Shown here one piece after another: positions 46,931 to 62,101 of a stretch of 64,000 nucleotides of DNA (position 1 is the stretch's first letter; each line of letters opens with the position of its first letter). The notes beneath the pieces are model-generated. The model worked only from the letters and a program-made list of their open reading frames with translations, was not told the DNA's origin and did not search any database. The DNA lies in contig QKAW01000040.1 of assembly GCA_003247135.1 (NCBI GenBank), positions 62,001 through 126,000 on the forward strand, written 5' to 3'. Source of the DNA: Spirochaetales bacterium. Its GTDB lineage: Bacteria > Spirochaetota > Spirochaetia > DSM-2461. Made by a program: the position numbers and the translations under genes.

Positions 46931-47960
46931 TGTATTTCTCCTTTATTATTTTCATTAAACCCGAAACTTTATCCTGAATCCTCAAACTTGATGTAATTTC
47001 TGAAACAATTGCAACAGAAGTTGCTCCTCTTTTTATAATCTCATGCAGGTTATGTTCCTTAATTCCTCCAATTGCAACAAATGGAATATCTGTGTTTTCG
47101 ACTACCCATTCTAAATATGTATAACCTACAGGATCACAAACATTTACCTTTGTTTTGGTGGAAAAGATTGGTCCTACTCCAATATAATCAACCCCGCTTT
47201 TTATTGCTATTTTTGCCTGTTCAGGACTATGGGTTGAAAGGCCAATTATTTTATTGAACCCAAGTAGCTTTCTTACTTCTTTAACTGGCAGATCATCCTG
47301 ACCAATATGTACTCCATCTGCATCCACTAGAAGTGCTATATCAACATGATCATTTATAATAAATAGTATACCGGCTTCTTTGGTCAGTTTTCTTATTTCA
47401 ATGCATTCTAAAAATTTTTCTGTAATTGATAAATTTTTTTCTCTGTATTGAATAATTTTAATTCCAGCCTTAATCATCTCTTTAACAACTTCTATATTAC
47501 TTCTACCTGCGGAGCTTTCAAGATATGTAATACCATATAGGGGAGGTAGAGTAAATTTTTTCTGACTAATATAGCTTATAATCTCTTTTTCTATAGAGTA
47601 TGTCTGGTAACGTAGCTGCTCAAAATCTACTTGAGGTCTTTCAGGTGAGCATTTGGAAATCTCTTCTAAACTTCTTAGGCCTTCCTGAACTCGTTTGAAA
47701 TTTCTACTGATTAAAGATTTTAAATTAATGTCATTTTCTAGTTTCATTTCAGTTGTCATACTTGGTCCAAAATCTGATATTGAATCTCTGTTTTCAAGAA
47801 GTTCAATATCGTAGTCTTTATACCCATCACGAATTGAGTGTCTCAGTTTTTTTAGTTTTCTTGTAACAGGTTCGCATTTGAATTTAAACCTGAAAATGTC
47901 TTCAAGTACTCTGTAACCTTCACAAACTCTATTAATATTACAATCAAGAATTCTGGTCAT
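46920..47960 (-). CDS. thiE: ThiD2-like domain fused to thiamine-phosphate synthase ThiE
   Basis: 346 residues. The C-terminal part (about 140-340) is ThiE, joining HMP-PP and thiazole phosphate: [48 protein letters not shown] and [15 protein letters not shown]. The N-terminal part (about 1-130) has [20 protein letters not shown], the pattern of the N-terminal domain often fused to ThiE that has been proposed as an alternative HMP-phosphate kinase, ThiD2. No separate ThiD is in the operon, which fits this domain supplying the kinase step. The ATG lies in the end of thiF behind GGGGGG. Confidence 0.88.
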
Positions 47961-48567
47961 CTATCCCCCCTAATGTATACTCCAAAATAACTGCAGCCTG
48001 TTTTGCTGCAGCTATTGAGACTCCAGGACTTAAAGGAGAGATTCCATCTTCTGTATCAGATTTTAAATCTCCAATAATACAAAGGTTTTCCTTTACCTTA
48101 TGGATTTTTATCTCTTCAACATTCCACAAATTACCTAATCCTGATGCAGCAACATATTTTTTATTGTCTAAAATATTTTCAAGAAAGATCTGTTTACTTC
48201 TGGTATTATCAAAACACTCGGTAACTATATTGCATTCATTGAAAATAGATTTAATATTCTCTGATGTTAAATTTAGTTTATGAGTTGTAACATTTATATC
48301 AGGGTTAATTTTTAGTAAATTTTCTTTAAGTGTAGAGCTTTTATCTTTTCCAATTTGATTAATAAAAAAGAATTGCCTATTTAAATTTGTGTTTTCTATA
48401 TCATCATGGTCAACAAGAATAAAGTCCCTGTATCCAAGTCGAACCAGATTATGTGCTAGGTTTGAGCCTAAACCTCCACAGCCTGCGATCCCGATTTTAG
48501 ATTTCCCAATCTCTGATAACTGTTTTTTATTTAAATATTTTAAAAGTCCTTTTTCCATTATATTCAT
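47944..48567 (-). CDS. thiF: Sulfur-carrier adenylyltransferase ThiF
   Basis: Activates the C-terminus of ThiS for sulfur transfer. 207 residues from the ATG at 48567, which forms an ATGA overlap with the thiH stop; a TTG four codons earlier is possible. Nucleotide-binding IGIAGCGGLGSNLAHNL, VDHDDIENTNLNRQ and TECFDNTRSKQ are present. It is the short ThiF form without the C-terminal zinc/cysteine region of E. coli ThiF. Function is secured by its position in thiSGHF-E-C. Confidence 0.9.
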   Translation of the reverse strand: MNIMEKGLLKYLNKKQLSEIGKSKIGIAGCGGLGSNLAHNLVRLGYRDFILVDHDDIENTNLNRQFFFINQIGKDKSSTLKENLLKINPDINVTTHKLNLTSENIKSIFNECNIVTECFDNTRSKQIFLENILDNKKYVAASGLGNLWNVEEIKIHKVKENLCIIGDLKSDTEDGISPLSPGVSIAAAKQAAVILEYTLGGIDDQNS

Positions 48568-49667
48568 ATAGTAACCCAATCCTTGTATACAGGTTGGTAA
48601 CCTTTTGCTTTTATCGATGCATGAAATTCTTCTACAGTTCGTTTATCTGAAGTTTCGAACTGGTTAATTCCATCATTTTTTATATGACCTCCAACCTTCG
48701 TTTTAGATTCTGCAGACATCTTTGTCACTCCAAGTGGTATCAGGTTATCTCTGAGACATTCACTCTCTCTGGTGGATATGGATATACCTCCTTTTTGAAT
48801 AAAAAGTCTGAAAGCTATAATAAACTTTGCAAGTTGTTTGTCTGATACTTCAATGCCAGTCTGATAACCTCCAGTAGCTTCTTTTATTCTGGGTAAAGAG
48901 ATGGATACATTAACTCCTGGAAATTTTTTCTGGATATAACTGCAGTGTAGACCTGCCAGAAAAAAATCTTTTATTGGTTCAGAAAGGCCTAGTAATACAC
49001 CCAGATTCAGACTTCTGATTCCAGCTTCTGCAGCTCTTTCGGGAGCATTTAATCTAAAATCATAATCACTCTTTTCCCCGGAAAGATGCACTTTTTTGTA
49101 AGTTTCACAATTATATGTTTCCTGGTAAAGTGTTACATTCTCAACACCTAAATCTGCTAAAGTTGAATATTCATCAGATGTCATAGAGTACATCTCTATT
49201 GATATTGATGAAAAATACTTTCTGGCAATTAAAACTGCACTTTTTATATAGTTTATAGAAGTTTTTACACGGTCACCCCCTGTAAGTAAAAGAATGTGCT
49301 TTAACCCTTTTTCTGATATTGACATACACTCATTCTCGATCTCCTTTAAACTAAGAATATCTCTTTCAATTCTGTTATCTCTATTAAATCCACAATATAT
49401 GCATCTATTAGTGCAAAAATTGGATAAGTAGAGTGGGGTATATATCTGGATAGTTTTACCAAATTCATTAACAGTTCTTTTATGAGCCTTTTGAGCTAAT
49501 TTTTCTAAAAAAGAGTCACTAGCAGGAGTTAAGAGTGTAAGAAAATCAGTATCAGTTAAATAGTCTTTATGTAATATATCTTCTATTATATTTTTATTAC
49601 TGGTCTTTATAAATTTATCGAAATCAAAACTGCCCCATTTATCCAAAATACTTTTAAAATTACTCAT
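48564..49667 (-). CDS. thiH: 2-iminoacetate synthase ThiH
   Basis: A radical SAM tyrosine lyase providing dehydroglycine for the thiazole, the anaerobic alternative to the glycine oxidase ThiO. 367 residues. The cluster motif is CTNRCIYC (C-x3-C-x2-C) in [20 protein letters not shown], with ILLLTGGD and VTLYQETYN downstream. Use of ThiH fits an oxygen-sensitive lifestyle. It overlaps thiG by eight bases. Confidence 0.95.
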
Positions 49668-50430
49668 GTAGAAATCCTGTAAGTGGGCTTGAGGCTACTG
49701 CATACTCAGTTTTTGTTCCCAACCCGGCAAGAAAGGCTTTTCTTCCAGCATCTATAGCATTGCTAAAAGCTTCAGCCATTAAAACTGGATTTGGGCTGGA
49801 TGCTATAGCTGTATTTATAAGACAAGCTGATGCTCCCATCTCCATTACAAGAGCTGCATCCGAAGGCTTTCCAATTCCTGCATCTACTATTACAGGAAGA
49901 TTAATCTGATCAATTAAAATTTTAATCATCTCTTTACACTGAATACCTCTATTACTACCTATTGGACTTCCAAGTGGCATTACTGCAGCAGCCCCGGCAT
50001 CAATCAGACTTCTTCCCAGATATAAGTCTGCATTTATATAAGGTAAAACAACAAAGCCTTCACTAGCTAAAATCTCAGTAGCTTTTAGTGTCTCATATCC
50101 ATCGGGTAATAGATATTTATTATCAGATATAACTTCAATTTTAACCCAGTTCCCACATCCAGATGCTCTGGCTATTCTTGCAATCTTAACTGCTTCAAGG
50201 GCATTTCTTGCACCAGAAGTATTGGGTAGTAGTTTCATATGCTTGGGAATGTAATCCATTAGTGATTTATGCTTAGAGTTTAAATCTACTCTTCGTAAAG
50301 CAACAGTAATTATTTCGGAACCTGAAACTTCAGATATTTCAGGAATAATAGAGTCACAAGAGTATTTACCACTGCCTGTTAATAATCTTGACTTAAAATA
50401 TTCATTACCAATTTTTAACAGATCATTCAT
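49660..50430 (-). CDS. thiG: Thiazole synthase ThiG
   Basis: Forms thiazole phosphate from deoxyxylulose phosphate, dehydroglycine and ThiS-thiocarboxylate. 256 residues from the ATG at 50430, six bases after GGAGG; a GTG at 50442 inside thiS is less likely. [47 protein letters not shown] and [22 protein letters not shown] are all present. Confidence 0.95.
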
Positions 50431-50431
50431 A

Positions 50432-50632
50432 TCAGCCTCCACCTACAATTGATAAAATATCAATAGTGGAACCATCAGATGGTTCAAAAGATGAATAACT
50501 GTTTTTTACAATAATTTCCTGATTAACAAGCACAATAATTTTATCTGGATTCAAATTATAATGAGAAATAATTGATAAAATATTGGGTTTTACATCAAAG
50601 GATAAAGTGTTTGCATTTACTAACAATTTCAT
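50432..50632 (-). CDS. thiS: Sulfur carrier protein ThiS
   Basis: A 66-residue ubiquitin-fold carrier ending in the required Gly-Gly (here IVGGG), adenylated by ThiF and charged with sulfur. First gene of the thi operon, behind the TPP riboswitch. AGGAGA precedes the ATG. Confidence 0.92.
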
Positions 50633-50713: not shown

Positions 50714-50740
50714 ATATATCAATAAAAAAATTAATATTTT

Positions 50741-50822
50741 TAGGCTTCCCTACGACAGTATTAACTGTATCAGGTTCAAAGGGTCAGTATTTAACTTCTC
50801 AGCCTATATAGGCTCCCCTAGC
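50741..50822 (-). ncRNA. TPP riboswitch (THI element)
   Basis: The minus strand carries the conserved core of the thiamine pyrophosphate aptamer: GGGGAGCC, GGCTGAGA, GACCCTTTGAACCTGAT and the closing GTTAATACTG...CGTAGGGAAGCC. With the terminator downstream it should switch the thiSGHF-thiD2E-thiC operon off when TPP is abundant. Confidence 0.96.
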
Positions 50823-50909
50823 ATTTAATTAAACTTAATATCTTTTAATTATTTAATCAATACCATTTTTTGTTGTATAATTTATAATATCACTGAAAAA
50901 GGAGTCTTT

Positions 50910-51179
50910 TTGGAAGAAGTTGAAGGAATATCCAGATTAAATGAGGTTCTTTATATAATAAGAAACGAGAAAGGGAAGATTGATAAAGTTTTAGATGTAA
51001 ATTTAAATGAAGTTGATAAAACTATGCTATACAAATCATTTATGATAAGAGTTGAAAAAGGCGGATTTTATTACAAAGATGAGTTTATAGAAATGGAAAA
51101 TATATTGGAAGTAATGAAAAAAAGAGCTTTAGGATATCAGCGTAGAAGAAAAGGGCACAGTTTTGATTCTATTTTGTAA
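50910..51179 (+). CDS. Small hypothetical protein upstream of the HDOD gene
   Basis: 89 residues from TTG at 50910, five bases after AAAAAGGAG. Charged and helical, ending in a basic tail (KKRALGYQRRRKGHS). No signal peptide, no membrane segment and no motif I recognise. Two TATAAT boxes (50876-50881, 50883-50888) lie just upstream. It shares a transcript with the HDOD gene (14-bp gap) and may act with it. Confidence 0.6.
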   Translation: MEEVEGISRLNEVLYIIRNEKGKIDKVLDVNLNEVDKTMLYKSFMIRVEKGGFYYKDEFIEMENILEVMKKRALGYQRRRKGHSFDSIL

Positions 51180-51193
51180 GGAGGTGTACTAAA

Positions 51194-52033
51194 TTGGATG
51201 ATTTCTCAAAATATTTAAATGATCTACCTGTAATCCCGGATGTTGCATTAAAGATAATTTCTTTTGCAGAAGACAATATTGATATATCATTTAATGATTT
51301 GGAAGAGCTAATCAGGATAGATACCGCAATAACATCAAAAATTCTGAAAGTAGCCAACTCTGCTATGTATGCCAGACAAAATCAGATAAAAAGTTTGCAA
51401 AAAGCAATCTCACTTCTGGGTTTTAAGACGATAAAAAGTCTTGTTCTAATAATTTCTGCAACATCAGCATTTAAACCTGAGGGTAATCAACCTTTTTTTA
51501 AGGACTTCTGGACTAACTCGGTTCTAACAGCTTTTTATGCTAAGGAGTTAGCAGCAATTCTTTTTGATAGTGATACCGCTGAAGATGTTTTTCTTGCGGG
51601 TTTGATTCATAAAATTGGTCAAGTAGCTCTTTATAGACATAATAAAGAGTATTATAGGTATATAAAAACAGAGAGTGATTTATTAAATATTACTGATATT
51701 GAAGAATTTTATTTTAAAGTAAATCATAAAGAGTTAGGAAGTAAAATACTAAAAACATGGTCTTTCCCGGAGTTATTAGTTGATTGTGCCAGGGAGTATG
51801 GTTCAAATAATGTAGTATCCAGGTATAAAAAAGAGATTATTTTAGTATCTTTAGGAGAAATTATGGCAAATGAGGAGAGCTACAACACTGAGCTCTTTAG
51901 TAATATACCCTTTGAAAATTCCTGGTTTAAATTTTTAGGCATGACAGAGGATTATTTTCTTAGTATAAAAAAAGATATTATCCAAACAGTAAAAAATAGT
52001 GACGATTTTAAGGATTGTAAAAATCTTTTTTAA
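51194..52033 (+). CDS. HDOD-domain signalling protein
   Basis: 279 residues from TTG at 51194, eight bases after AAGGAGG. The HDOD domain covers about 5-200: LPVIPDVALKIISFAEDNIDISFNDLEELIRIDTAITSKILKVANSAMY, with KAISLLGFKTIKSLVL and FLAGLIHKIGQVAL (an HD-like histidine but no full HD pair). HDOD proteins are signalling or regulatory and usually lack phosphodiesterase activity. Its stop lies nine bases from the convergent PelB-like gene without a hairpin. Confidence 0.85.
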   Translation: MDDFSKYLNDLPVIPDVALKIISFAEDNIDISFNDLEELIRIDTAITSKILKVANSAMYARQNQIKSLQKAISLLGFKTIKSLVLIISATSAFKPEGNQPFFKDFWTNSVLTAFYAKELAAILFDSDTAEDVFLAGLIHKIGQVALYRHNKEYYRYIKTESDLLNITDIEEFYFKVNHKELGSKILKTWSFPELLVDCAREYGSNNVVSRYKKEIILVSLGEIMANEESYNTELFSNIPFENSWFKFLGMTEDYFLSIKKDIIQTVKNSDDFKDCKNLF

Positions 52034-52042
52034 TCATTTAAG

Positions 52043-55000
52043 TTAAAATATTGTTTTGAACATTGATATATTAAAACCAATTGATGCCTGAAATGACCAA
52101 TAGTCTGGTTCAATACTGTTTGAGAATGAACCGGACCCAAATAATTTTAAGAATATATTTCTATTATCTTTATTAAAAGACAAAAGCAGATCTCCGTCAG
52201 TAGCAAAGCTCGATACTGATTCTCTTCCAAGTTTGTCTATATATATACCGGCACCTAATCTCGAATTAATACTAAAAACTCCCCCCATAAGTCCAATAAA
52301 ACTGGATACTGTCCCTCCTATTTTGGAAACAAAAACACTATCAGGAGTGTAGTAGAGGTTTTTTTTGATTATATCTGAATTTTCATAGGTTGTAGAGTTA
52401 TATATTTGTAATGTTGTCCAAGGATTTTTTGCCAATAATAACCCAACAACAAAATCCTGAGCTAAGGTGTATATATTATTATTATCATTATATCCGCTTC
52501 TGTTATCCAAGCTAAAATAAGTTCTAAATGATAAGGAATTAATATTTCCTGCATTTGACAGAGGAAAATAACCTGATATGGAGTATTTTTGTGCAATAGA
52601 ATTAATATTTTTTATATTATTAGGAATTGTTTCATGCAAAATACCTTGCTCAAGGGCAATATTTACAGAAAAATTATTTATATTATTATTTAACTTTAAA
52701 TTTATGTATGGATAAATAATATTTGATGAAAGTATATCTGCAATATCAAAACTGCTGTTTGGAAGAATCTCATTATACTTGTTATTGTAAATTGTTGCTC
52801 CAAACCCGGGTTCCACTAATGTTTTATTCTCAAAAAGTGAAATTTGAGAATTTATCATAAAAGTATCAACTTTGTACTTTCTGGGAGCGCCAATTTCACT
52901 CCATTTGTAGTAGATATATGAATTCTCTTTCCATACAGGAGATATTTTAAACCATGATTTAATATTAAAATCTGTTGTAAATTCAGATTTGTAATCAACT
53001 CTGTTACTATCTGTAAAATATTCCAGATTTCCACTACTTAAGTCAGGATGTTGGGAAGATAAATTATTAAACATTGATGCTGCACTTTTAAAATCGGAAT
53101 CAATTCTGTACACTCCTTCGTAACTTTCCAAAGCTTCTTTCCAACTGCCTGTAAGTTGCTGAAGTCTTCCAATTTTAAAATTTGTTGTAGTATTAAATGG
53201 ATCTATTGAAATTACCAGATTGAATTGCTCTAGTGCTTTACTATACTCCTCTTGCTGAAGGTAGTAGTCTCCAATATTATACCTTATTAAATAGGTATTT
53301 TCCTGATGATTATATATAGCTCTTGTTAACTTATTACTTATTAAGAGGATTACTTCATCTGTCTTATTTTTTAATGATTTCTGAAGAGTAATTACTTTTC
53401 TTTGCTCACTGCCAATTAGTTCAATTATTGATGGAATATTTTTTAGAAAATCATCATTAAGTTCTATAACAGGAGAAATATCAGAATTAAGCTTATTTAT
53501 AAATTCCTGCTCTGCTATCATTCCTGGGTATAAAAAAGATAGTTCTGTAAGTGCCACTTTATCTGGTTCAATATTATTCCACAACTTTTTGTGATATTCC
53601 AGCAAACTGTTTTGAGTGAAGATCTCATCAGAATTGTTTATATCCCTCTTTTTTTTATTTTTTGATTTAAAAACAAGATGTACCCTCTCCAGAATATTAT
53701 TTGCAATCTCACTACTGGACTGCACTTCCGAAACTTCTTCAAGTTCTGAAATTAGATAGTTTAGATTCAACCTCCAATTGTTTTGCATTGTTAGGTTTGA
53801 AAATATAGTTTCAAGCTCATTTTCTTGACTAATAATATCTTTATACATCGAGTTAATTAATTTAAATTCCTCATTAACTATAAAACTTCTACCAAGAGTA
53901 ATATTAAGTCTGTTAATTATTTCATTTAGTAATGATTTTGATTCTTCTATCTCAGAATTATTAATAATACTTGTTCTATATTTAATTATAGCATTTAATA
54001 GTTCATTTTTTAAATTTGTCAAATCCTCATAACTGTTATTTATATATATATCAATATATTTAAGGATATCGTAATATATAAAGAGATCTATAGATTCTTT
54101 TTCAAATTGAGCCATACTCAGGGAATGATTAATAGTTAGTATTGATTTATATTCCAGTATGGCTTTATCAACAATTCCATTCCAAAAATATGTTTGTACA
54201 AGCAGCTCTCTCTGATCCAGATTTGTTGGATCAAGCTCAATACTATTTTCCAGTTCTTCTATATAGTGATCTCTCAACGAAGCCTGTTTTCTTGTATAAT
54301 CCAGTATTTTTGCCAGTTCATCAGATATTGTAAAAATAGACTCAATTTTATTAATTGTTAGATTTGAATTTTCAATATCTCCTAAACTGCTGTATATCTT
54401 TTCAAGTTCCAGATATAGCTGAATAATATCAGGATATTCTCTAATTTTGTTATTATAAAACTTAACAGCATAATCCGGGTATCCGTTTATTCGATAGATA
54501 GAAGCAATATTTTTTATTTTATCGACATCATCATTACTACTGTTCTCTATTGTAGACAGTATATCCAACCCCTCCTGAATATTTGAATTCCACAAATAGG
54601 TTAAAGCTAGATTAATTTTTAAAGAGTTGCTATCTGGGAATACTGAGAGGCCTCTATTGAAAATATCTATAGATTTGTTCAATTCTCCAATCCATGCTGC
54701 AATTTTTCCAGCCTCTTCCCAAACAGCTAAATTCTCAGGGTATAGCTCTAAATAACTCTCATAATCCCGAATTCCTCGATCATTCTCACCACTCCATATT
54801 CTGCTTTTTGCAAGAAGCAGTTTAGCATCTCTGTTTTTAGGATCAATCTGTAGTATTCTTGTAAGCATCTTAATGGCATTTAGGTAATCACCTATTAAAA
54901 TGTATATATGGGAAAGAGACATATAACTTGGTGTCGAATTGGGGTTATTTTTTATAATATTCTGATAATATGAGATACTGTTAAAGGCATTATCTATTGC

Positions 55001-55618
55001 TCTGTTATTCATATCTTTTGGGAAAACATCAGGGGTTAATCCCGGATTAGTTTCATCGCCATTAAATAAGAAAAAACTATCTAAGTAGAAATAAAATTTA
55101 CCATCGAAACGTCTTTTTTCCTTAACTTCAAATCTGACTTTATGATACCCTTTTTCAAGATCGAAATTTTCAGTTTTTATCCAGTAGAGACCTGGAGCAT
55201 ATGCTTCAACAACATTTACATCCTCCCTATAAATATTTACTATCTTATCATCAATAACTAGAGTAAATGGGGAGGAGTAGGAAGGATAAATGTCCTCTTT
55301 AGTTCCTGGTGGTGTACCTGAATACCAGAAGTTGTAATTTCCTGGGTCATCAATATAAATTACATATTCAGAAAAATAAGCATTAGATTTGTAATTACTA
55401 TTGTAAGTATTTAGCTGTAATGTTCTTTGACTTGATGCACTGTAATTCAAAGTCGGAGAAGTTGAAAAATTAGTTACTATAGCATTTTCTGCTTCATAAT
55501 ATATCAGATTTTTATTACTTTCAGGTAATACAGGGATATATTTTTGTTGAGAGAAAATATTAGATGTAAAAATAGATAGCAGGGATGTGAATATGGCAAG
55601 TTGTTTAATTTTTTTCAT
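52043..55618 (-). CDS. PelB-like outer-membrane protein: sugar-binding-like domain, TPRs, beta-barrel
   Basis: 1191 residues, close to the length of P. aeruginosa PelB, the TPR-beta-barrel exporter of Pel polysaccharide. Domains in order: signal peptide (1-23); a beta-sandwich of about 35-190 starting IYYEAENAIVT, a carbohydrate-binding-module-like opening (CBM6/35 style EAENA), with YHKVRFEVKEKRR...FYLDSFFLF; TPR arrays at about 225-400 and 790-860; a long helical middle; and from about 890 alternating beta strands ending in ...QASIGFNISMFKTIF with a terminal phenylalanine, typical of an outer-membrane barrel. It is divergent from pelD with only 45 bp between the two starts. Identity as PelB is by architecture and context; the N-terminal sugar-binding domain is not part of known PelB. 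Confidence 0.72.
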   Translation of the reverse strand: MKKIKQLAIFTSLLSIFTSNIFSQQKYIPVLPESNKNLIYYEAENAIVTNFSTSPTLNYSASSQRTLQLNTYNSNYKSNAYFSEYVIYIDDPGNYNFWYSGTPPGTKEDIYPSYSSPFTLVIDDKIVNIYREDVNVVEAYAPGLYWIKTENFDLEKGYHKVRFEVKEKRRFDGKFYFYLDSFFLFNGDETNPGLTPDVFPKDMNNRAIDNAFNSISYYQNIIKNNPNSTPSYMSLSHIYILIGDYLNAIKMLTRILQIDPKNRDAKLLLAKSRIWSGENDRGIRDYESYLELYPENLAVWEEAGKIAAWIGELNKSIDIFNRGLSVFPDSNSLKINLALTYLWNSNIQEGLDILSTIENSSNDDVDKIKNIASIYRINGYPDYAVKFYNNKIREYPDIIQLYLELEKIYSSLGDIENSNLTINKIESIFTISDELAKILDYTRKQASLRDHYIEELENSIELDPTNLDQRELLVQTYFWNGIVDKAILEYKSILTINHSLSMAQFEKESIDLFIYYDILKYIDIYINNSYEDLTNLKNELLNAIIKYRTSIINNSEIEESKSLLNEIINRLNITLGRSFIVNEEFKLINSMYKDIISQENELETIFSNLTMQNNWRLNLNYLISELEEVSEVQSSSEIANNILERVHLVFKSKNKKKRDINNSDEIFTQNSLLEYHKKLWNNIEPDKVALTELSFLYPGMIAEQEFINKLNSDISPVIELNDDFLKNIPSIIELIGSEQRKVITLQKSLKNKTDEVILLISNKLTRAIYNHQENTYLIRYNIGDYYLQQEEYSKALEQFNLVISIDPFNTTTNFKIGRLQQLTGSWKEALESYEGVYRIDSDFKSAASMFNNLSSQHPDLSSGNLEYFTDSNRVDYKSEFTTDFNIKSWFKISPVWKENSYIYYKWSEIGAPRKYKVDTFMINSQISLFENKTLVEPGFGATIYNNKYNEILPNSSFDIADILSSNIIYPYINLKLNNNINNFSVNIALEQGILHETIPNNIKNINSIAQKYSISGYFPLSNAGNINSLSFRTYFSLDNRSGYNDNNNIYTLAQDFVVGLLLAKNPWTTLQIYNSTTYENSDIIKKNLYYTPDSVFVSKIGGTVSSFIGLMGGVFSINSRLGAGIYIDKLGRESVSSFATDGDLLLSFNKDNRNIFLKLFGSGSFSNSIEPDYWSFQASIGFNISMFKTIF

Positions 55619-55666
55619 ATAATACCTCTACAATTACTATATAATTAATTATAGTGGTATTATATG
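55616..55666. promoter_or_regulatory. Symmetric divergent control region between the PelB-like gene and pelD
   Basis: CATATAATACCTCTA (55616-55630) is the reverse complement of TAGTGGTATTATATG (55652-55666) except at one position. Each arm holds the start codon and ribosome binding site of one gene. The centre (ACTATA-N8-TATAGT, 55636-55655) holds a TATAAT box on each strand (55640-55645 plus, 55648-55653 minus). Confidence 0.7.
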
Positions 55667-57085
55667 AGTGATAGTAGTAAAAATAAAATTTTTATAGAGC
55701 TTTTAATCTCCAGTTTGACAATATATGCAATAAGCTTGTTTTTTACTGATAATCCAGGGCTTTATAAGAATAATTATATATTGTATTGGTTAATCCCTTT
55801 AGTCTTTACACTATTTTATGGAAAAAAAGTAATTTTTATATCATTATTAGCATCACTAATTACTCTATCACTGACTTTTACAACATTTTATATCATTTAT
55901 GAATATAACAAAATGAGTTATCACTTATATTTATACCTTCAGCCACTACCATTATCTCTGTCAATAATTATATTTCTACTCTATCTATCTACCCTAATAT
56001 TGTCCAAATATACAATATCAATTGATAAACTAAATAAAAGAGTTAAGAAATTATCTCTGGAAAGTTTATACTATAAAAGGGCTACAAAGGCTCTTGAAAT
56101 TGTGAATAATGAGTATGAGTTACAACTGACAAGATCCCAGGACTCTATTACAGCACTTTATAGGCAACTGGATAAGTTAAATAAGTTAAATTCGCAATTT
56201 GTTTTATCAACTTTTTTAGAGACAATACAAATGTTTATTGGAATAAAGAAAGCAACAATTAGAGCTTATAATCTACTTGAATCCAAATTGGAATTGGTCT
56301 CCTCAATAGGATATGAGGATAGAGAACCAGAAAGATTTCTGGATTTAAATGGAACAGTGGAAGGTTTTGTATTTAGAAATAATCAATTTTTTAGTATAAG
56401 AAAAATTAAAGATTTTCAGTCTCTGGTTCTAAGCCAAGCAAAAAACAATATATTAACAGTTCCAATAAGTATTGATAGGAAAGTTTGGGGAATCCTCAAT
56501 ATTGAAGATATGCCTTTTGAAAAATATAGCCGATACAGTGAGCAATTAATTCATATAATCGTAAATTTAACAGAGCCAACATTAAAAAAAGCACTGGATT
56601 ATGAAAGTATGGTTCAGCATCAGGATCTTGATAGTGCAACTGGTTTACCTATGTTTACTCAATTCTATACACTTCTTGAAGAGAAACAGAAATTAACATG
56701 GAAAGATGGAAGCTCTTTATCAGTAATAATTTTTGAAATAAAGAATATGGCAGAACTACTGGCCCTCTATAATTATGTTGATATTATGGTTTTATTTAAG
56801 GAAAATCTTTTATCTGTGTTTAATGACTCAAGCCATGATTTTCTTTTTTTTAAGTATAAGGAGAGTAATCAGATAGTAATGGTTTCAACAAACCTTGATC
56901 TTGATGGTATATCTTTTTATCTAGTTAAAATTTTCAAGAAATTCAGTAAAAAGGAGCTTTTAATAGACGATTCAAAGGTTATGATTGATATTGCCGTTGG
57001 TTATAGCACTCAAAAATATCAAAAAGTTTCAACGGATTCACTATTAGCAGAAGCTGAGAATCTTCTTGAGATTAGTAAGATATAG
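55664..57085 (+). CDS. pelD: PelD-like membrane receptor (4 TM, GAF, degenerate GGDEF)
   Basis: 473 residues. Four hydrophobic segments (about 10-115), a coiled coil (about 118-170), a GAF domain (about 175-310) and a degenerate GGDEF domain (about 320-473) that starts as DSATGLPMFTQFYTLL but carries KYKESNQ where a GGDEF motif would be. PelD of Pseudomonas binds c-di-GMP through an RxxD site next to this position to switch on Pel synthesis; here the local sequence is DSSHDFLFFKYKES, with no RxxD. Placement before pelF and pelG makes the PelD assignment firm even though ligand binding is doubtful. Confidence 0.82.
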   Translation: MSDSSKNKIFIELLISSLTIYAISLFFTDNPGLYKNNYILYWLIPLVFTLFYGKKVIFISLLASLITLSLTFTTFYIIYEYNKMSYHLYLYLQPLPLSLSIIIFLLYLSTLILSKYTISIDKLNKRVKKLSLESLYYKRATKALEIVNNEYELQLTRSQDSITALYRQLDKLNKLNSQFVLSTFLETIQMFIGIKKATIRAYNLLESKLELVSSIGYEDREPERFLDLNGTVEGFVFRNNQFFSIRKIKDFQSLVLSQAKNNILTVPISIDRKVWGILNIEDMPFEKYSRYSEQLIHIIVNLTEPTLKKALDYESMVQHQDLDSATGLPMFTQFYTLLEEKQKLTWKDGSSLSVIIFEIKNMAELLALYNYVDIMVLFKENLLSVFNDSSHDFLFFKYKESNQIVMVSTNLDLDGISFYLVKIFKKFSKKELLIDDSKVMIDIAVGYSTQKYQKVSTDSLLAEAENLLEISKI

Positions 57086-57088
57086 AGT

Positions 57089-57856
57089 ATGACAATTTAT
57101 AATTTTTTTGTAAGAATTCTATCATTATCATCACCAAAAACCCCAAATACAGCAATAGCAGGTATAAAGAAAGGAATACTTCCAAAGGAATCTTTTATAA
57201 ATTCATCTCTTTTTTTAAATTCCCCTTTTGATTCTTTTGGTAAGGCGGAAACCTTAACAGAGGCAGAGGATTTTGACAGACTAGTAGAGCTGGAGAGGAT
57301 ACTATCTAAAAAAAATATAGATTTGGAAACGGAAATTGTTCTTTTTAAAACATTAAACGAGTTAGTTGAGCATATAAACCCAGAGATAGCTCTTTTCGCT
57401 GCAGAGAGTATTAACAGTATTGAGAATCGCTATAACAAGGATATATATGAATTAAAAAGAAGAGTAGATGATAAGACTCTATTGGATCTTATTAAGGTTA
57501 TAGACCTGATTAAACTATATTACAGGTATGGAACAATTAATGAAAAAAAGGAAGATTTAAAAAGAGTTTATTATACCGAAGCTTTAAACTATATAGAGAA
57601 GAGTAATATTGATGCCAGTAGCGATGTTTTTTTGCTTAAAATAGTGATAAAAATTTATAATTATTTCAAATTCTACAGTAAAGCTAAAGTGTTAGTGACA
57701 TCTGCAAAAATTGAGTATTGGCAAATTATGCTAATGCTTATTGAGATAGAATTTGAAGCAAGAAATTTTGATAATTTATATCATATTATAGATGGTATAG
57801 ATATAGATCGAATTCCCTTGGAATTTCAGGATAGGATAAACCTATGGAAGAGATAA
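57089..57856 (+). CDS. PelE-position cytosolic repeat protein
   Basis: 255 residues, helical, no convincing membrane segment. The order DLETEIVLFKTLNELVEHINPEIALFAAESINSIEN and several later helix pairs suggest a TPR/HEAT-like scaffold. In known pel operons PelE sits between PelD and PelF and links them, but it usually starts with membrane helices, absent here. It may be a reduced PelE equivalent or a different partner. pelF overlaps its end by 13 bases. Confidence 0.55.
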   Translation: MTIYNFFVRILSLSSPKTPNTAIAGIKKGILPKESFINSSLFLNSPFDSFGKAETLTEAEDFDRLVELERILSKKNIDLETEIVLFKTLNELVEHINPEIALFAAESINSIENRYNKDIYELKRRVDDKTLLDLIKVIDLIKLYYRYGTINEKKEDLKRVYYTEALNYIEKSNIDASSDVFLLKIVIKIYNYFKFYSKAKVLVTSAKIEYWQIMLMLIEIEFEARNFDNLYHIIDGIDIDRIPLEFQDRINLWKR

Positions 57857-59256
57857 AAAGGTTAAAAGTTTGTTTAACCCTCGAAGGATCTTATCCTTTT
57901 ATTACAGGGGGTGTAAGTGCATGGATTCATGATTTAATTCTAGGATTACCTAAGATAGATTTTATCCTGTTTACTATTTCTCCAAAGGAGAATCAAAGCC
58001 TTAGGTATACCCTTCCTAAAAATGTAGTAGAACATATAGATATCGTAATTAGCAGCAAAATTAATCATCAAGTAAAGATTGGAAAGAAAAAAGAGAAAGA
58101 TATTCTAAAGATGCTTATTAAGGGGTATAAAGAACATGAGAATATTAGTCAATATATCGTAGATATTATAAATAATACTCCTGAAGGCTATTCAGTATTC
58201 AATAATTTTATTAATAGTGATGAAGGTTGGGATTTGATTGTAAAAGATAGTATTAAAAGAAATCCAGCATACTCTTTTTCTGATTATTTTTGGGCCTGGA
58301 AATCCAGTTATGATCTACTTTTTAATATTATCTCCCAAAAGATGCCAAAAGCTGATATCTATCATGCTGTTAGTACAGGTTTCGCTGGTGTTGCGGCGCT
58401 GTGTGGAAAGTTAAGAAATAAAAAACCTATGCTGCTTTCAGAACATGGACTATATCATAAAGAGAGGGAGATGGAGATTCGAAGGGCAACATTTGTTAAA
58501 GGATATCAAAGGGATATATGGATTGAGATGTATTATAATCTCAGTAGAGCCTGTTATTCGAATTCAGATATAATCACAAGTTTATTTGAGTTAAACAGGC
58601 AGTATCAAATTCAGTTGGGTGCTGATCCATTGAACTGTTATGTTACACCTAATGGTATCGATATTGAGAAATTTAAGGTAAAAAGAGTTCCCAAGAGTGG
58701 TTTTCATATAGGTTTGGTAGGCAGAGTTGTTCCAATAAAAGATATAAAAACTTTTATTAAGATGTCAAAAATACTATCCCAAAGAATTCCTGAAGTCCAT
58801 TTCTACTGTATCGGCCCTACAGATGAAGACCCATATTACTTCTCCGAATGTAAAAATTTGGTCTATAGCCTTGGTCTTGATGATTTTTTTACCTTTACCG
58901 GTCGTGTTAATGTTCTCGATTACTACTGTTTTTTAAATGTTATGCTTTTAACAAGCATTAGAGAAGCTCAACCCTTGGTAATACTGGAGGGATGGCTCGC
59001 AAATATACCAGTTGTTTCTACTAAAGTTGGAAATGTGCCAGAGATGCTAGATTATGATGAAAGATTTTTAGCTTCATCAAAGGATTTTCAAAAACTGGCA
59101 GATTCAGTTCTTTATATTTATAATAATCCAGAACGAATAGATGAAATAAACAATAAAAACAGACTTAAAGTAGAAAATTTTTACAACAAAGAGAAACTTC
59201 ATGCCAAATACATGGATATTTATAAAAAACTGGAGCATATAAAATGGCAGGAATAG
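57844..59256 (+). CDS. pelF: Pel polysaccharide glycosyltransferase PelF
   Basis: 470-residue GT4-family GT-B enzyme, cytoplasmic. N-terminal LTLEGSYPFITGGVSAWIHD and MLLSEHGLYHKEREMEI are the family marks of PelF; the donor site has GLVGRVVPIKDIKTFI and SIREAQPLVILEG with the E-x7-E pair. PelF uses UDP-GlcNAc in Pseudomonas. ATG behind AGGATAAA inside the previous gene. Confidence 0.92.
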   Translation: MEEIKRLKVCLTLEGSYPFITGGVSAWIHDLILGLPKIDFILFTISPKENQSLRYTLPKNVVEHIDIVISSKINHQVKIGKKKEKDILKMLIKGYKEHENISQYIVDIINNTPEGYSVFNNFINSDEGWDLIVKDSIKRNPAYSFSDYFWAWKSSYDLLFNIISQKMPKADIYHAVSTGFAGVAALCGKLRNKKPMLLSEHGLYHKEREMEIRRATFVKGYQRDIWIEMYYNLSRACYSNSDIITSLFELNRQYQIQLGADPLNCYVTPNGIDIEKFKVKRVPKSGFHIGLVGRVVPIKDIKTFIKMSKILSQRIPEVHFYCIGPTDEDPYYFSECKNLVYSLGLDDFFTFTGRVNVLDYYCFLNVMLLTSIREAQPLVILEGWLANIPVVSTKVGNVPEMLDYDERFLASSKDFQKLADSVLYIYNNPERIDEINNKNRLKVENFYNKEKLHAKYMDIYKKLEHIKWQE

Positions 59257-60611
59257 GATTTGAATTAAAAAAAATTATTAGTGAAAACTCTATAAGTTCA
59301 TTCTTTAAAGCATCTGCAAGTGGTATTTTTATAGTATCTGGTCCATGGTTATTATCAATATTGACACTTTCTGTTATATCATTAATAACAGCAAATTACA
59401 GTAATGGTATAATTTCACAGTTTTTTGGAATTCTGGTTTATGTAAATGCATTTTCTTTAATCATTACTGGTGGGCTTCATTATATTATTACAAGAATTTT
59501 CTCTGATTACATATTTGAAAAAAGGGTTAATTACGCTCTCTCCTTTATTTTGATAAATGGCATATTTATTGCTATAATTACCTTTATTCTAACAATGCTT
59601 TTTTTAGTGCTTGCCAGCGGGCTGAAACTATCAAATATGACGTTATCTTTAATAATTGCTTTTCAGGTCTGTGTAACAAATTTTCTCTGGATAATTCTCA
59701 TTTTTGTTACTTATTTAAAATGGTATAAAAATATTTTGCTATCATTTATTGCAGGAATAGTTCTGATAATAATATGTTTGGTTACGGAATCTGAAATTAA
59801 TCTAAATAATTTACTTATGTATTACACATTTGGAAATTTTTTAACCCTTTTATCCCTTATTTCTATATCATGTAAAAGTTACAAACCTGAAAGAATCTCA
59901 TCCTATGAGGTTATTAAAGTAATTATGAGATATTTTTCAAAATATAAATATTTACTACTAACAGGTTTTTTCTACTATGTTTCCTTCTGGATCGATAAAA
60001 TTTTAAACTGGTATTTTATTGGGGAATATATTGATGGATTGAAAATTAAACTTTTAACAAGCTATGATCTGTCAATGTATATAGCAAATCTTACAATTAT
60101 TCCTGGTATGGTTTTTTTTATAATTAATACTGAAACCAGTTTCTTTATTGGAATCAAAAAATTTATTCTTTCTCTGACTATAAGTGACTATAAAACTATT
60201 AGGGGAAAAAGAAATGAGTTATATGAATCTTCAATGCAGAATATTAAATTACAGAGTCAGTTGCAGTTTATATTATCACTCTCTTTATCTTTAATATCCT
60301 ATAAAATTTTACCCCAATATCATGTAATTCTGATAATTGCTATATGGGCTGTTAATTTTCAATTAATAGTTTTTACCTATATGAATTTTTTATTTTATCT
60401 TGAACGTTATTACCACTGTTTTTTAATTGTATTCAGTATTACTCTAATAAATATATCATTATATTTTGTTATTTTACTCTCTCCAATAAATAATATCCCT
60501 GGACTCTCCTACCTATTAGCTAATGCTTTTGGTGTGTATATATGTAAAAAGATTTATTTTTACGATGCCAGTAGAATAGATAGATATATTTACTCTGAAA
60601 ATAGTAATTAG
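59244..60611 (+). CDS. pelG: Pel polysaccharide membrane transporter PelG
   Basis: 455 residues, about 12 hydrophobic segments, starting MAGIGFELKKI, the hallmark N-terminus of PelG, a MOP/MATE-fold protein that works with PelF in the inner membrane. GGAG lies nine bases before the ATG, inside the end of pelF (13-base overlap). The pelF-pelG pair is the conserved core of every Pel locus. Confidence 0.92.
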   Translation: MAGIGFELKKIISENSISSFFKASASGIFIVSGPWLLSILTLSVISLITANYSNGIISQFFGILVYVNAFSLIITGGLHYIITRIFSDYIFEKRVNYALSFILINGIFIAIITFILTMLFLVLASGLKLSNMTLSLIIAFQVCVTNFLWIILIFVTYLKWYKNILLSFIAGIVLIIICLVTESEINLNNLLMYYTFGNFLTLLSLISISCKSYKPERISSYEVIKVIMRYFSKYKYLLLTGFFYYVSFWIDKILNWYFIGEYIDGLKIKLLTSYDLSMYIANLTIIPGMVFFIINTETSFFIGIKKFILSLTISDYKTIRGKRNELYESSMQNIKLQSQLQFILSLSLSLISYKILPQYHVILIIAIWAVNFQLIVFTYMNFLFYLERYYHCFLIVFSITLINISLYFVILLSPINNIPGLSYLLANAFGVYICKKIYFYDASRIDRYIYSENSN

Positions 60612-60688: not shown

Positions 60689-62101
60689 ATGAAATTTTTA
60701 TCTATAATAGGAATAATATTTTTTTTAAGTTGTTCAATTGGAACAACAACTACTCAAAGAGATGATAGTTTAATAAAAGATGATCTTATTAATCTACCCT
60801 TATATATTCCGGCTATTGAGGCAGGAATAAGTGTAGCTAACGAAGTAGAGATTGATAATGTTCAAAGGGCTTTAGATCCAACACAAGTAACGGTTGATGA
60901 TTCATCTATAATGGTTGATTATTTTGGAACCAATTGGCAGACAACTCCCAGAACTCCAGATGAAGTGTTTCAGGCAAAAGGGACTTCAGGTCAGACTTTA
61001 CGAATTCCCGAGAGTGGTTTAATAAAAGGTTTATATGGAAAGGTAAATAATGATTTTTACTTAACAATGGAAAATATAGGTACTTCTAAATACATTTTAA
61101 CACTTTTTATCTATCCCAGAGATATTTTTAATATAAAATATCAAGAGATTGAATATGTGTTAGACGAGACTAATAGTGGTGCCGCCTGGGCATGGGATTG
61201 GTTTAATATTAGGGGGAAAAATAGATTATATACCAGTGAAATAACATATTTTAGAGATGGTAGCTATAGTGAAAGAAGTTCAGACCCAGAATCTGGTTCA
61301 GTTTTATATACTGATGTAAAAAGCAAGGCTCCAGAATTAGATAATTCGGCCTCAATTACAGGGGTTCTTGGAAGTATAGACAATTACACTATTCCCAAAA
61401 AAATACCAAGATTTACAACAGAAAGTGGTCAGTTCAGCTCATATACAAAATCTATTATAAGAGGTGGAAGCGATATATTTCTTGCGGATGAATATTATTC
61501 GGAAGATAGCAGGTATAGTTACAGTGTCATATATTTGGAAGCTCAGAAACAGAAAAATATCGAAGAGAATGTTACAAGATACATTGAAGATAGAGAAAAT
61601 AATAGTGTAAAAATTCTTTCTTTGAATACGAATGGAGATTACTATACTGAAATCAATGGGATATTTAAGACCACCGATAGTTTTCAATCAGAAAACCATG
61701 TATGGTATACCTCTCCTGTTTCAACACTGAACACTAGTACATCAAATTCTATATATAATAACTTATCAAAAGCCACAGATTATGAAACAACTCATTTATA
61801 CAATGGTGTAATGAAGCAGTATTGGGGTAATAATGGTGTAGAGTATAGTTATTCAGTTAACACCTATACCGGGGACATTGTTATGCAGTTTAGTTCTAAT
61901 CTTAATAGATCAATAGATCCAGTGTTTAATCTTAAGGACATTTCTTCAATTACAATTGGATCAGAAAGTTTACCTTGGTCATTTTCTGGAAAATATGAAT
62001 TGGGTTCTTTAAAAGGTATATATAAATATGAAAATTACAGTGCAGATGTTATTATTTATTTAAATGGAATAGAAATTAACGGGAAAAAATATAATTGGTA
62101 A
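60689..62101 (+). CDS. Lipoprotein of unknown function downstream of pelG
   Basis: 470 residues. The signal ends in LSC (Cys15, IIFFLSCSIGT). The mature part is strand-rich with many Ser/Thr/Asn/Tyr residues (WAWDWFNIRGKNRLYTSE, NHVWYTSP) and no recognised domain. It is much larger than PelC, the lipoprotein ring of the Pel exporter. It has its own promoter and terminator, so a link to Pel is by position only. Confidence 0.65.
   Translation: MKFLSIIGIIFFLSCSIGTTTTQRDDSLIKDDLINLPLYIPAIEAGISVANEVEIDNVQRALDPTQVTVDDSSIMVDYFGTNWQTTPRTPDEVFQAKGTSGQTLRIPESGLIKGLYGKVNNDFYLTMENIGTSKYILTLFIYPRDIFNIKYQEIEYVLDETNSGAAWAWDWFNIRGKNRLYTSEITYFRDGSYSERSSDPESGSVLYTDVKSKAPELDNSASITGVLGSIDNYTIPKKIPRFTTESGQFSSYTKSIIRGGSDIFLADEYYSEDSRYSYSVIYLEAQKQKNIEENVTRYIEDRENNSVKILSLNTNGDYYTEINGIFKTTDSFQSENHVWYTSPVSTLNTSTSNSIYNNLSKATDYETTHLYNGVMKQYWGNNGVEYSYSVNTYTGDIVMQFSSNLNRSIDPVFNLKDISSITIGSESLPWSFSGKYELGSLKGIYKYENYSADVIIYLNGIEINGKKYNW

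Follow-up and report, generated by a model that had tools for sequence, protein, structure and literature searches.

A spirochaete-restricted Pel-type exopolysaccharide locus with a carbohydrate-binding-module-type domain on its exporter

The window analysed here, a stretch of 64,000 nt from a contig of a Spirochaetales bacterium (QKAW01000040.1), carries a Pel-type exopolysaccharide locus, in which genes for PelD-, PelE-, PelF- and PelG-type proteins are divergent from gene B, encoding an outer-membrane exporter of 1191 amino acid residues (aa). The source genome is a 2.69-Mb metagenome-assembled genome (MAG) with a completeness of 71%. Comparison with related genomes identified the locus as a real, conserved and spirochaete-restricted variant of the Pel type, whose exporter carries a domain of the carbohydrate-binding module (CBM) type. 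As a whole, the results are best explained by synthase-dependent secretion of an exopolysaccharide of the Pel type, in a form specific to Spirochaetota, a reading to which we assign a probability of roughly two in three (0.66).

According to this reading, PelF, a member of an established family, would polymerise a hexosamine polymer, probably from N-acetylgalactosamine (GalNAc), and PelG, together with the PelD-like and PelE-like proteins, would by homology move it across the inner membrane. In the periplasm, the chain may be taken up by the N-terminal domain of the exporter, modelled with a CBM6/35-type fold, then led along the TPR superhelix to leave by a 16-strand outer-membrane barrel, by analogy with BcsC, PgaA and PelB. 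A lipoprotein encoded behind pelG, here called X, would probably hold or shape the polymer at the outer membrane, given its lipobox, its linkage to the locus and the lectin domains of some members. Regulation may run through an HDOD-domain protein instead of the RxxD site by which PelD binds cyclic di-GMP (c-di-GMP).

Pel has previously been studied in Proteobacteria and Gram-positive bacteria; spirochaetes are not mentioned in the two surveys of pel operons that were searched, and one open-literature search for pel operons and spirochaetes returned a single general review. Spirochaetes are now seen to have a conserved exopolysaccharide machine, with an exporter that has a built-in domain of a chain-binding type and with a new accessory lipoprotein family. 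Sister loci with and without a deacetylase, an enzyme essential elsewhere, form a natural comparison, and both polymer recognition and the need of deacetylation for export become directly testable.

Gene arrangement and Pel-type proteins

The pelD-like, pelE-like, pelF and pelG genes form a tight set on the plus strand (55664-60611), with 3 bp between the first two and overlaps of 13 bp each between pelE-like and pelF and between pelF and pelG. Gene B lies on the minus strand, separated by 45 bp from the divergent pelD-like gene. A search for promoter-like sites in the region including this gap gave 77 sites with 77 expected, which is the chance level. The gene order and close packing, the divergent 1191-aa protein with signal peptide, TPRs and C-terminal barrel, its carbohydrate-binding-like sandwich and the lack of a PelA gene nearby had all been described in the initial annotation, and each was borne out by the coordinates, family models and structure predictions given below or, for the signal peptide, by eye.

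52043..55618, minus: exporter B of the outer membrane, 1191 aa, with a signal peptide (by eye), then a CBM6/35-type sandwich, TPRs and a barrel of 16 strands
55049..55534, minus: predicted CBM6/CBM35-type beta-sandwich of B, residues 29-190 (AlphaFold2, Foldseek, Pfam CBM_6, alignments)
54119..54982, minus: N-terminal TPR region of B, residues 213-500 (Pfam TPR families)
53048..53287, minus: C-terminal TPR pair of B adjoining the barrel, about residues 778-857 (Pfam TPR_2 and others, AlphaFold2)
52061..53044, minus: 16-strand beta-barrel of B, residues 859-1186 (AlphaFold2, Foldseek)
55619..55663, no strand: 45-bp intergenic gap between the exporter and pelD-like genes
55664..57085, plus: PelD-like protein, 473 aa (GAF and degenerate GGDEF domains; N-terminal membrane helices judged by eye; RxxD I-site lacking)
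57089..57856, plus: PelE-like cytoplasmic helical protein, 255 aa, lacking the N-terminal membrane part (hhalign)
57844..59256, plus: PelF glycosyltransferase (GT4), 470 aa (NF038011, PF11997)
59244..60611, plus: PelG inner-membrane polymer exporter, 455 aa (PF16933)

PelF matched the NCBIfam equivalog NF038011 (3e-99, 333 bits with a cut-off of 100) and Pfam PF11997 (1.5e-70), and PelG matched PF16933 (9.2e-65, 219.7 bits with a gathering score of 29). A single PelG copy was found in this genome, with no second one and no complete canonical pel operon elsewhere. The 255-aa protein is, by profile comparison, a remote PelE homologue: it aligned with the PelE-place proteins of Bacillus cereus-like pel loci in other spirochaetes (hhalign 98.9%, E 1.3e-17) over its own last 174 columns, and it lacks the N-terminal membrane part of about 150 residues present in these counterparts. 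The PelD-like protein has membrane helices, as judged by eye, a GAF domain and a degenerate GGDEF domain, its profile matching GGDEF chains at 4e-6. In an alignment of 44 PelD-like homologues, no conserved R-x-x-D was found before the GGDEF-equivalent position. In P. aeruginosa and B. cereus, the RxxD motif of PelD is the c-di-GMP site and is required (PMC7112168); since the usual RxxD-based control is absent here, control would differ, perhaps acting via the HDOD protein.

The window locus shares PelF, PelG, PelE-like and PelD-like proteins and a TPR and 16-strand barrel exporter with the P. aeruginosa Pel system (pelABCDEFG; PelBC 9H80). It differs in its divergent layout, its added HDOD and X genes, a PelE without membrane helices, the lack of the PelD RxxD motif, and the lack of an adjoining PelA or a recognisable PelC. 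The PelD, E, F and G set is likewise shared with the Gram-positive-type pelDEA(DA)FG of B. cereus (PelADA, CE26/CBM114, 9ZAU), whereas an outer-membrane exporter and a lipoprotein are found only in the window and the c-di-GMP RxxD is not conserved there.

The exporter and its N-terminal domain

By eye, the exporter starts with a signal-peptide-like segment, and the sandwich domain follows directly. Compared with P. aeruginosa Pel, this cleavable-looking signal peptide and the CBM6/35-type domain are additions; the N-terminal membrane helix of P. aeruginosa PelB may stay uncleaved (PMC12141448). The N-terminal domain was predicted by AlphaFold2 as a beta-sandwich with a predicted local distance difference test (pLDDT) score of 90.3, using 56 aligned sequences. 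Its top Foldseek match was 2cdp (E 2.3e-6, target TM-score (TMt) 0.73), an agarose-binding CBM6 solved with neoagarohexaose, and among the 50 PDB matches listed, most were CBM6 or CBM35 modules or proteins and enzymes carrying them; 2w47, with anhydrogalacturonic acid, was also among the nearest solved folds. Pfam CBM_6 gave weak matches in 7 of the 56 members (best 0.0011, in a relative), the gathering score was not reached, and the window copy was not matched. Based on the models, the domain can be assigned to the predicted CBM6/35-type fold.

This domain is also the best conserved part of the exporter, its identity to the window copy being 30-65% compared with 17-49% for the C-terminal part. 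Residues E42, E44, D180, W146 and R169 are invariant. The first three, an E-x-E...D pattern also seen in CBM6/CBM35 modules, presumably correspond to the structural calcium site of CBM6/35, and a set of loops rich in aromatic and charged residues (loop 102-117 with W98, W146 and R169) is conserved. Unlike the known CBM6/CBM35 modules, the domain is located on an exporter rather than on a glycoside hydrolase. A polymer-binding module and a TPR scaffold are found at the periplasmic entry of the alginate exporter too (AlgX/AlgK; PMC9734138), but there a separate modifying enzyme carries the CBM, and here the exporter does so.

From its fold and conservation, the N-terminal domain would probably bind sugar. 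The initial annotation had held that the exporter binds the polymer itself, and of this the CBM-type fold is supported, and binding is suggested by fold and conservation. CBM6/35-type folds can serve roles other than carbohydrate binding, and the domain might instead dock a partner (PelG, the X lipoprotein or DUF2194) or peptidoglycan. Its position as the most conserved exporter part, as a protein-protein interface would be, and its retention in loci both with and without a deacetylase are consistent with docking. However, its nearest solved folds bind polysaccharide, and the conserved loop set would be typical of ligand sites; we regard docking as unlikely, and uptake of the exported chain as the preferred role.

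The C-terminal part of B was predicted as TPR helices followed by a 16-strand barrel (pLDDT 93.5). The barrel matched BcsC (9b8h, Foldseek E 1.8e-11), the PgaA barrel (4y25, E 5.5e-9, TMt 0.82) and PelBC (9h80, E 1.3e-7); the PelB barrel likewise has 16 strands (PMC12141448). With a barrel that matches BcsC, PgaA and PelB in fold, the exporter was placed in this synthase-dependent class. BcsC (cellulose) and PgaA (poly-N-acetylglucosamine) also combine TPRs and a barrel on one chain. However, the window exporter is set apart from them by its N-terminal CBM-like domain, by its PelFG company and by family-model scores far under the cut-offs (14.5 bits with 858 for NF008520 of BcsC; 20.3 bits with 366.65 for TIGR03939 of PgaA). 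Searches of the PDB with exporter sequence profiles returned essentially TPR proteins.

Distribution, layouts and the deacetylase

One genome per species, 84,980 species in all, was scanned for the exporter, with two short peptide patterns as seeds, so that very divergent relatives could be missed. Of the 60 loci found, two were weak, chance-like matches in other phyla; the remaining 58, which are true relatives, all come from genomes labelled as Spirochaetota or as unclassified MAGs. Among 148 related genomes, the exporter N-terminal domain was found in 43 and PelG over its cut-off in 49; both were present in 42, the exporter alone in one and PelG alone in seven, which goes far past chance (Fisher 2e-28).

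A larger exporter version, of about 1640-1690 aa, was found outside the class in a wider sample of the phylum. At three loci (L128, L129 and L134), a homologue of about 1640 aa immediately follows a TPR lipoprotein gene and flagellar genes similar to flgK, flgL, fliW and csrA; in L128 and L129 it is accompanied by DUF2194. In L088 and L097, a further homologue (1034 and 971 aa, respectively) was observed near a full-length exporter, without adjoining PelFG; these are possibly paralogues for another polymer.

In a PelF tree, the PelFs of the module formed one clade (support 99/98), parted by a long branch from other PelFs, including those of the B. cereus-like loci of other spirochaete families. 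Within this clade, the PelFs of L032, L034, L036 and L038 (genus g3, of the window's family) group with family f23 and not with the divergent loci of their own family, which suggests horizontal exchange of the module. In the B. cereus-like loci (L049, L050, L051 and L052), DUF2194 is divergent from PelE-PelF-PelG, PelG is much extended at its C terminus (open frames of 570-840 aa), no outer-membrane exporter of the B family was seen nearby, and in L050 DUF2194 is accompanied by a PelD-like gene.

The module occurs in two layouts. In the co-directional layout, to which the g3 loci belong, the order is HDOD-D-E-F-G-B-DUF2194; in the divergent layout, that of the window, the X lipoprotein is present and DUF2194 is usually missing. 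DUF2194 was found in 13 of 13 co-directional genomes compared with 1 of 21 divergent ones (p 1.5e-8, with G013 scored from a truncated gene), mostly directly behind the exporter and in some genomes on another contig. The sister-locus protein matched PF09960 (1.8e-88) and B. cereus PelADA (PDB 9ZAU, E 3e-47), with the YIDD, HGYNH and HPDD motifs aligned, and is thus assigned by sequence to the PelADA-type (CE26) deacetylase family. Since a few divergent-type loci (L092, L133) also carry DUF2194 directly behind the exporter, the gene may be ancestral and later lost, the direction depending on the root.

No PelA-type enzyme is encoded in the window locus, and thus no PelADA homologue of the kind seen in the co-directional sister loci. 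PF09960 and PF03537 (GH114) had no match in this incomplete genome, in its congener G002 or in the single-contig G005, CE21 not being searched. A DUF2194 protein query against this genome also returned nothing, and the family model, run over the 148 genomes, did match relatives. The initial annotation had proposed that the polymer may be left non-deacetylated. The absence of a deacetylase beside this copy stood, but the proposal does not extend to the spirochaete form in general, as the co-directional relatives encode the DUF2194/PelADA-type enzyme together with the exporter, and since unlinked deacetylases of carbohydrate esterase family 4 (CE4) exist in this genome, the proposal is unproven. 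The idea that the CBM-like domain makes up for the lack of a deacetylase was rejected, since every DUF2194-adjoining exporter, including the co-directional ones, carries the domain too; it does not replace the enzyme.

The product might be ordinary, partly deacetylated Pel, made by a canonical system with an ornamented exporter and a deacetylase encoded elsewhere. In P. aeruginosa and B. cereus, Pel export or biofilm strictly requires deacetylation (PMC10269871, PMC13254593), and this genome has three PF01522 (CE4) matches, one of them a 251-aa lipoprotein with complete-looking motifs (LDDGP, HSRNH, RPP and LVLHN). However, these genes are not linked to the module, and CE4 is ubiquitous: at least one copy was found in 13 of 14 genomes searched and also in 11 of 14 control genomes, whereas none was found in G002, which has the module and is 81% complete. 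A secreted-looking protein of about 770 aa (774) with a C-terminal NodB-type deacetylase domain (for example, L159 1005-3329) is common in the class, but it occurs in 96 of the 148 genomes with or without Pel and was not found in the window's genus; as an unlinked PelA substitute it was rejected as unspecific (odds ratio 6, compared with 588 for exporter and PelG).

The charge of the barrel also bears on this point. The mean net charge of the barrel strands was -7.7 in DUF2194-adjoining exporters and -1.7 in the others, with -1 in the window; the window barrel, like that of most divergent members, is close to neutral, and those beside DUF2194 are anionic. The raw p of 1e-5 was obtained on a 45-sequence subset, and since phylogenetic contrasts gave p = 0.06, the difference is only suggestive of a cationic polymer with DUF2194 and a neutral one without. 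With these results, ordinary deacetylated Pel is judged doubtful. It is quite unlikely, too, that the divergent lineage lost its Pel deacetylase and exports a neutral, fully acetylated polymer through a barrel without its former anionic lining, with the CBM-like domain and lectin-type X holding the polymer in place of charge.

Several points weigh against a Spirochaetota-specific form of Pel secretion. The PelD-like protein was not matched by the PelD-specific model PF16963 (PelD_GGDEF), and its profile match to PDB PelD (0.42) was not significant; a genome search with PF16963 returned no match either, but its positive control was silent too and it is uninformative. The nearest solved exporter to the barrel is BcsC and not PelB, so that the name PelB-like is apt by genetic company and not by closest fold. 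Around the module, no recurring small lipoprotein was seen that would be a PelC candidate, in agreement with the initial annotation, although no PelC profile search was made. Most compared genomes are incomplete MAGs, and phylogeny affects the association counts, among them those of DUF2194 and X by layout, since the co-directional loci come close to forming a single clade. Of the initial proposal of a spirochaete form of Pel secretion, then, the Pel-type proteins, the exporter class and the restriction to spirochaetes held, whereas the barrel is matched as well or better by BcsC and PgaA. Neither of the refuting outcomes named in the initial annotation was observed, as the barrel did match PelBC and no second PelG was found.

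Production of a non-Pel polymer with a different sugar, by machinery that is only Pel-like, would fit the long PelF branch, the exporter's nearness to BcsC and PgaA, the unmatched PelD model and a caution from an operon survey that divergent pel loci need not yield the same polymer (PMC7112194), but it is rather improbable given the scores of PelF and PelG above their cut-offs and the PelADA homologue of the sister loci, PelADA acting on alpha-1,4-GalNAc (PMC13254593). Under Pel-type secretion, the polymer would presumably be GalNAc-based.

Accessory and neighbouring genes

The initial annotation placed the locus at 52043-60611. The gene places were correct, and the locus also includes the first two of the following genes:

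51194..52033, plus: HDOD-domain protein (PF08668 4e-47)
60689..62101, plus: Pel-associated X lipoprotein, 470 aa (lipobox, linkage)
50910..51179, plus: 89-aa protein encoded 5' of the HDOD gene, shared with the near relative L077 and of uncertain connection to the module

X is an undescribed accessory lipoprotein family linked to Pel. Its lipobox cysteine is invariant in the family alignment, and neither a Pfam match nor a PDB relative was found. X was present in 30 of the 148 genomes, 29 of them PelG-positive, and in 20 of 21 divergent-layout genomes compared with 3 of 13 co-directional ones. The iterative profile had not yet levelled off, going from 24 to 48 members in the final round, but nearly all matches adjoin the module, which argues against profile drift. 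A LamG/ConA-like lectin domain was detected in 6 of the 22 aligned members (best 2.8e-19), C-terminal by alignment, and X may bind sugar at the outer membrane.

The HDOD gene is convergent with gene B across a 9-bp gap. It adjoins the module in 24 of the 46 loci of the first set, many other loci being cut by contig ends, and the protein is a conserved neighbour of the exporter or of pelD. Farther upstream, a thiamine pyrophosphate (TPP) riboswitch was detected at 50730-50829 on the minus strand (RF00059, 82.8 bits), followed immediately by a terminator-like stem. It precedes 47944-50442, in a minus-strand set resembling thiazole biosynthesis genes (thiG, thiH and thiF by sequence).

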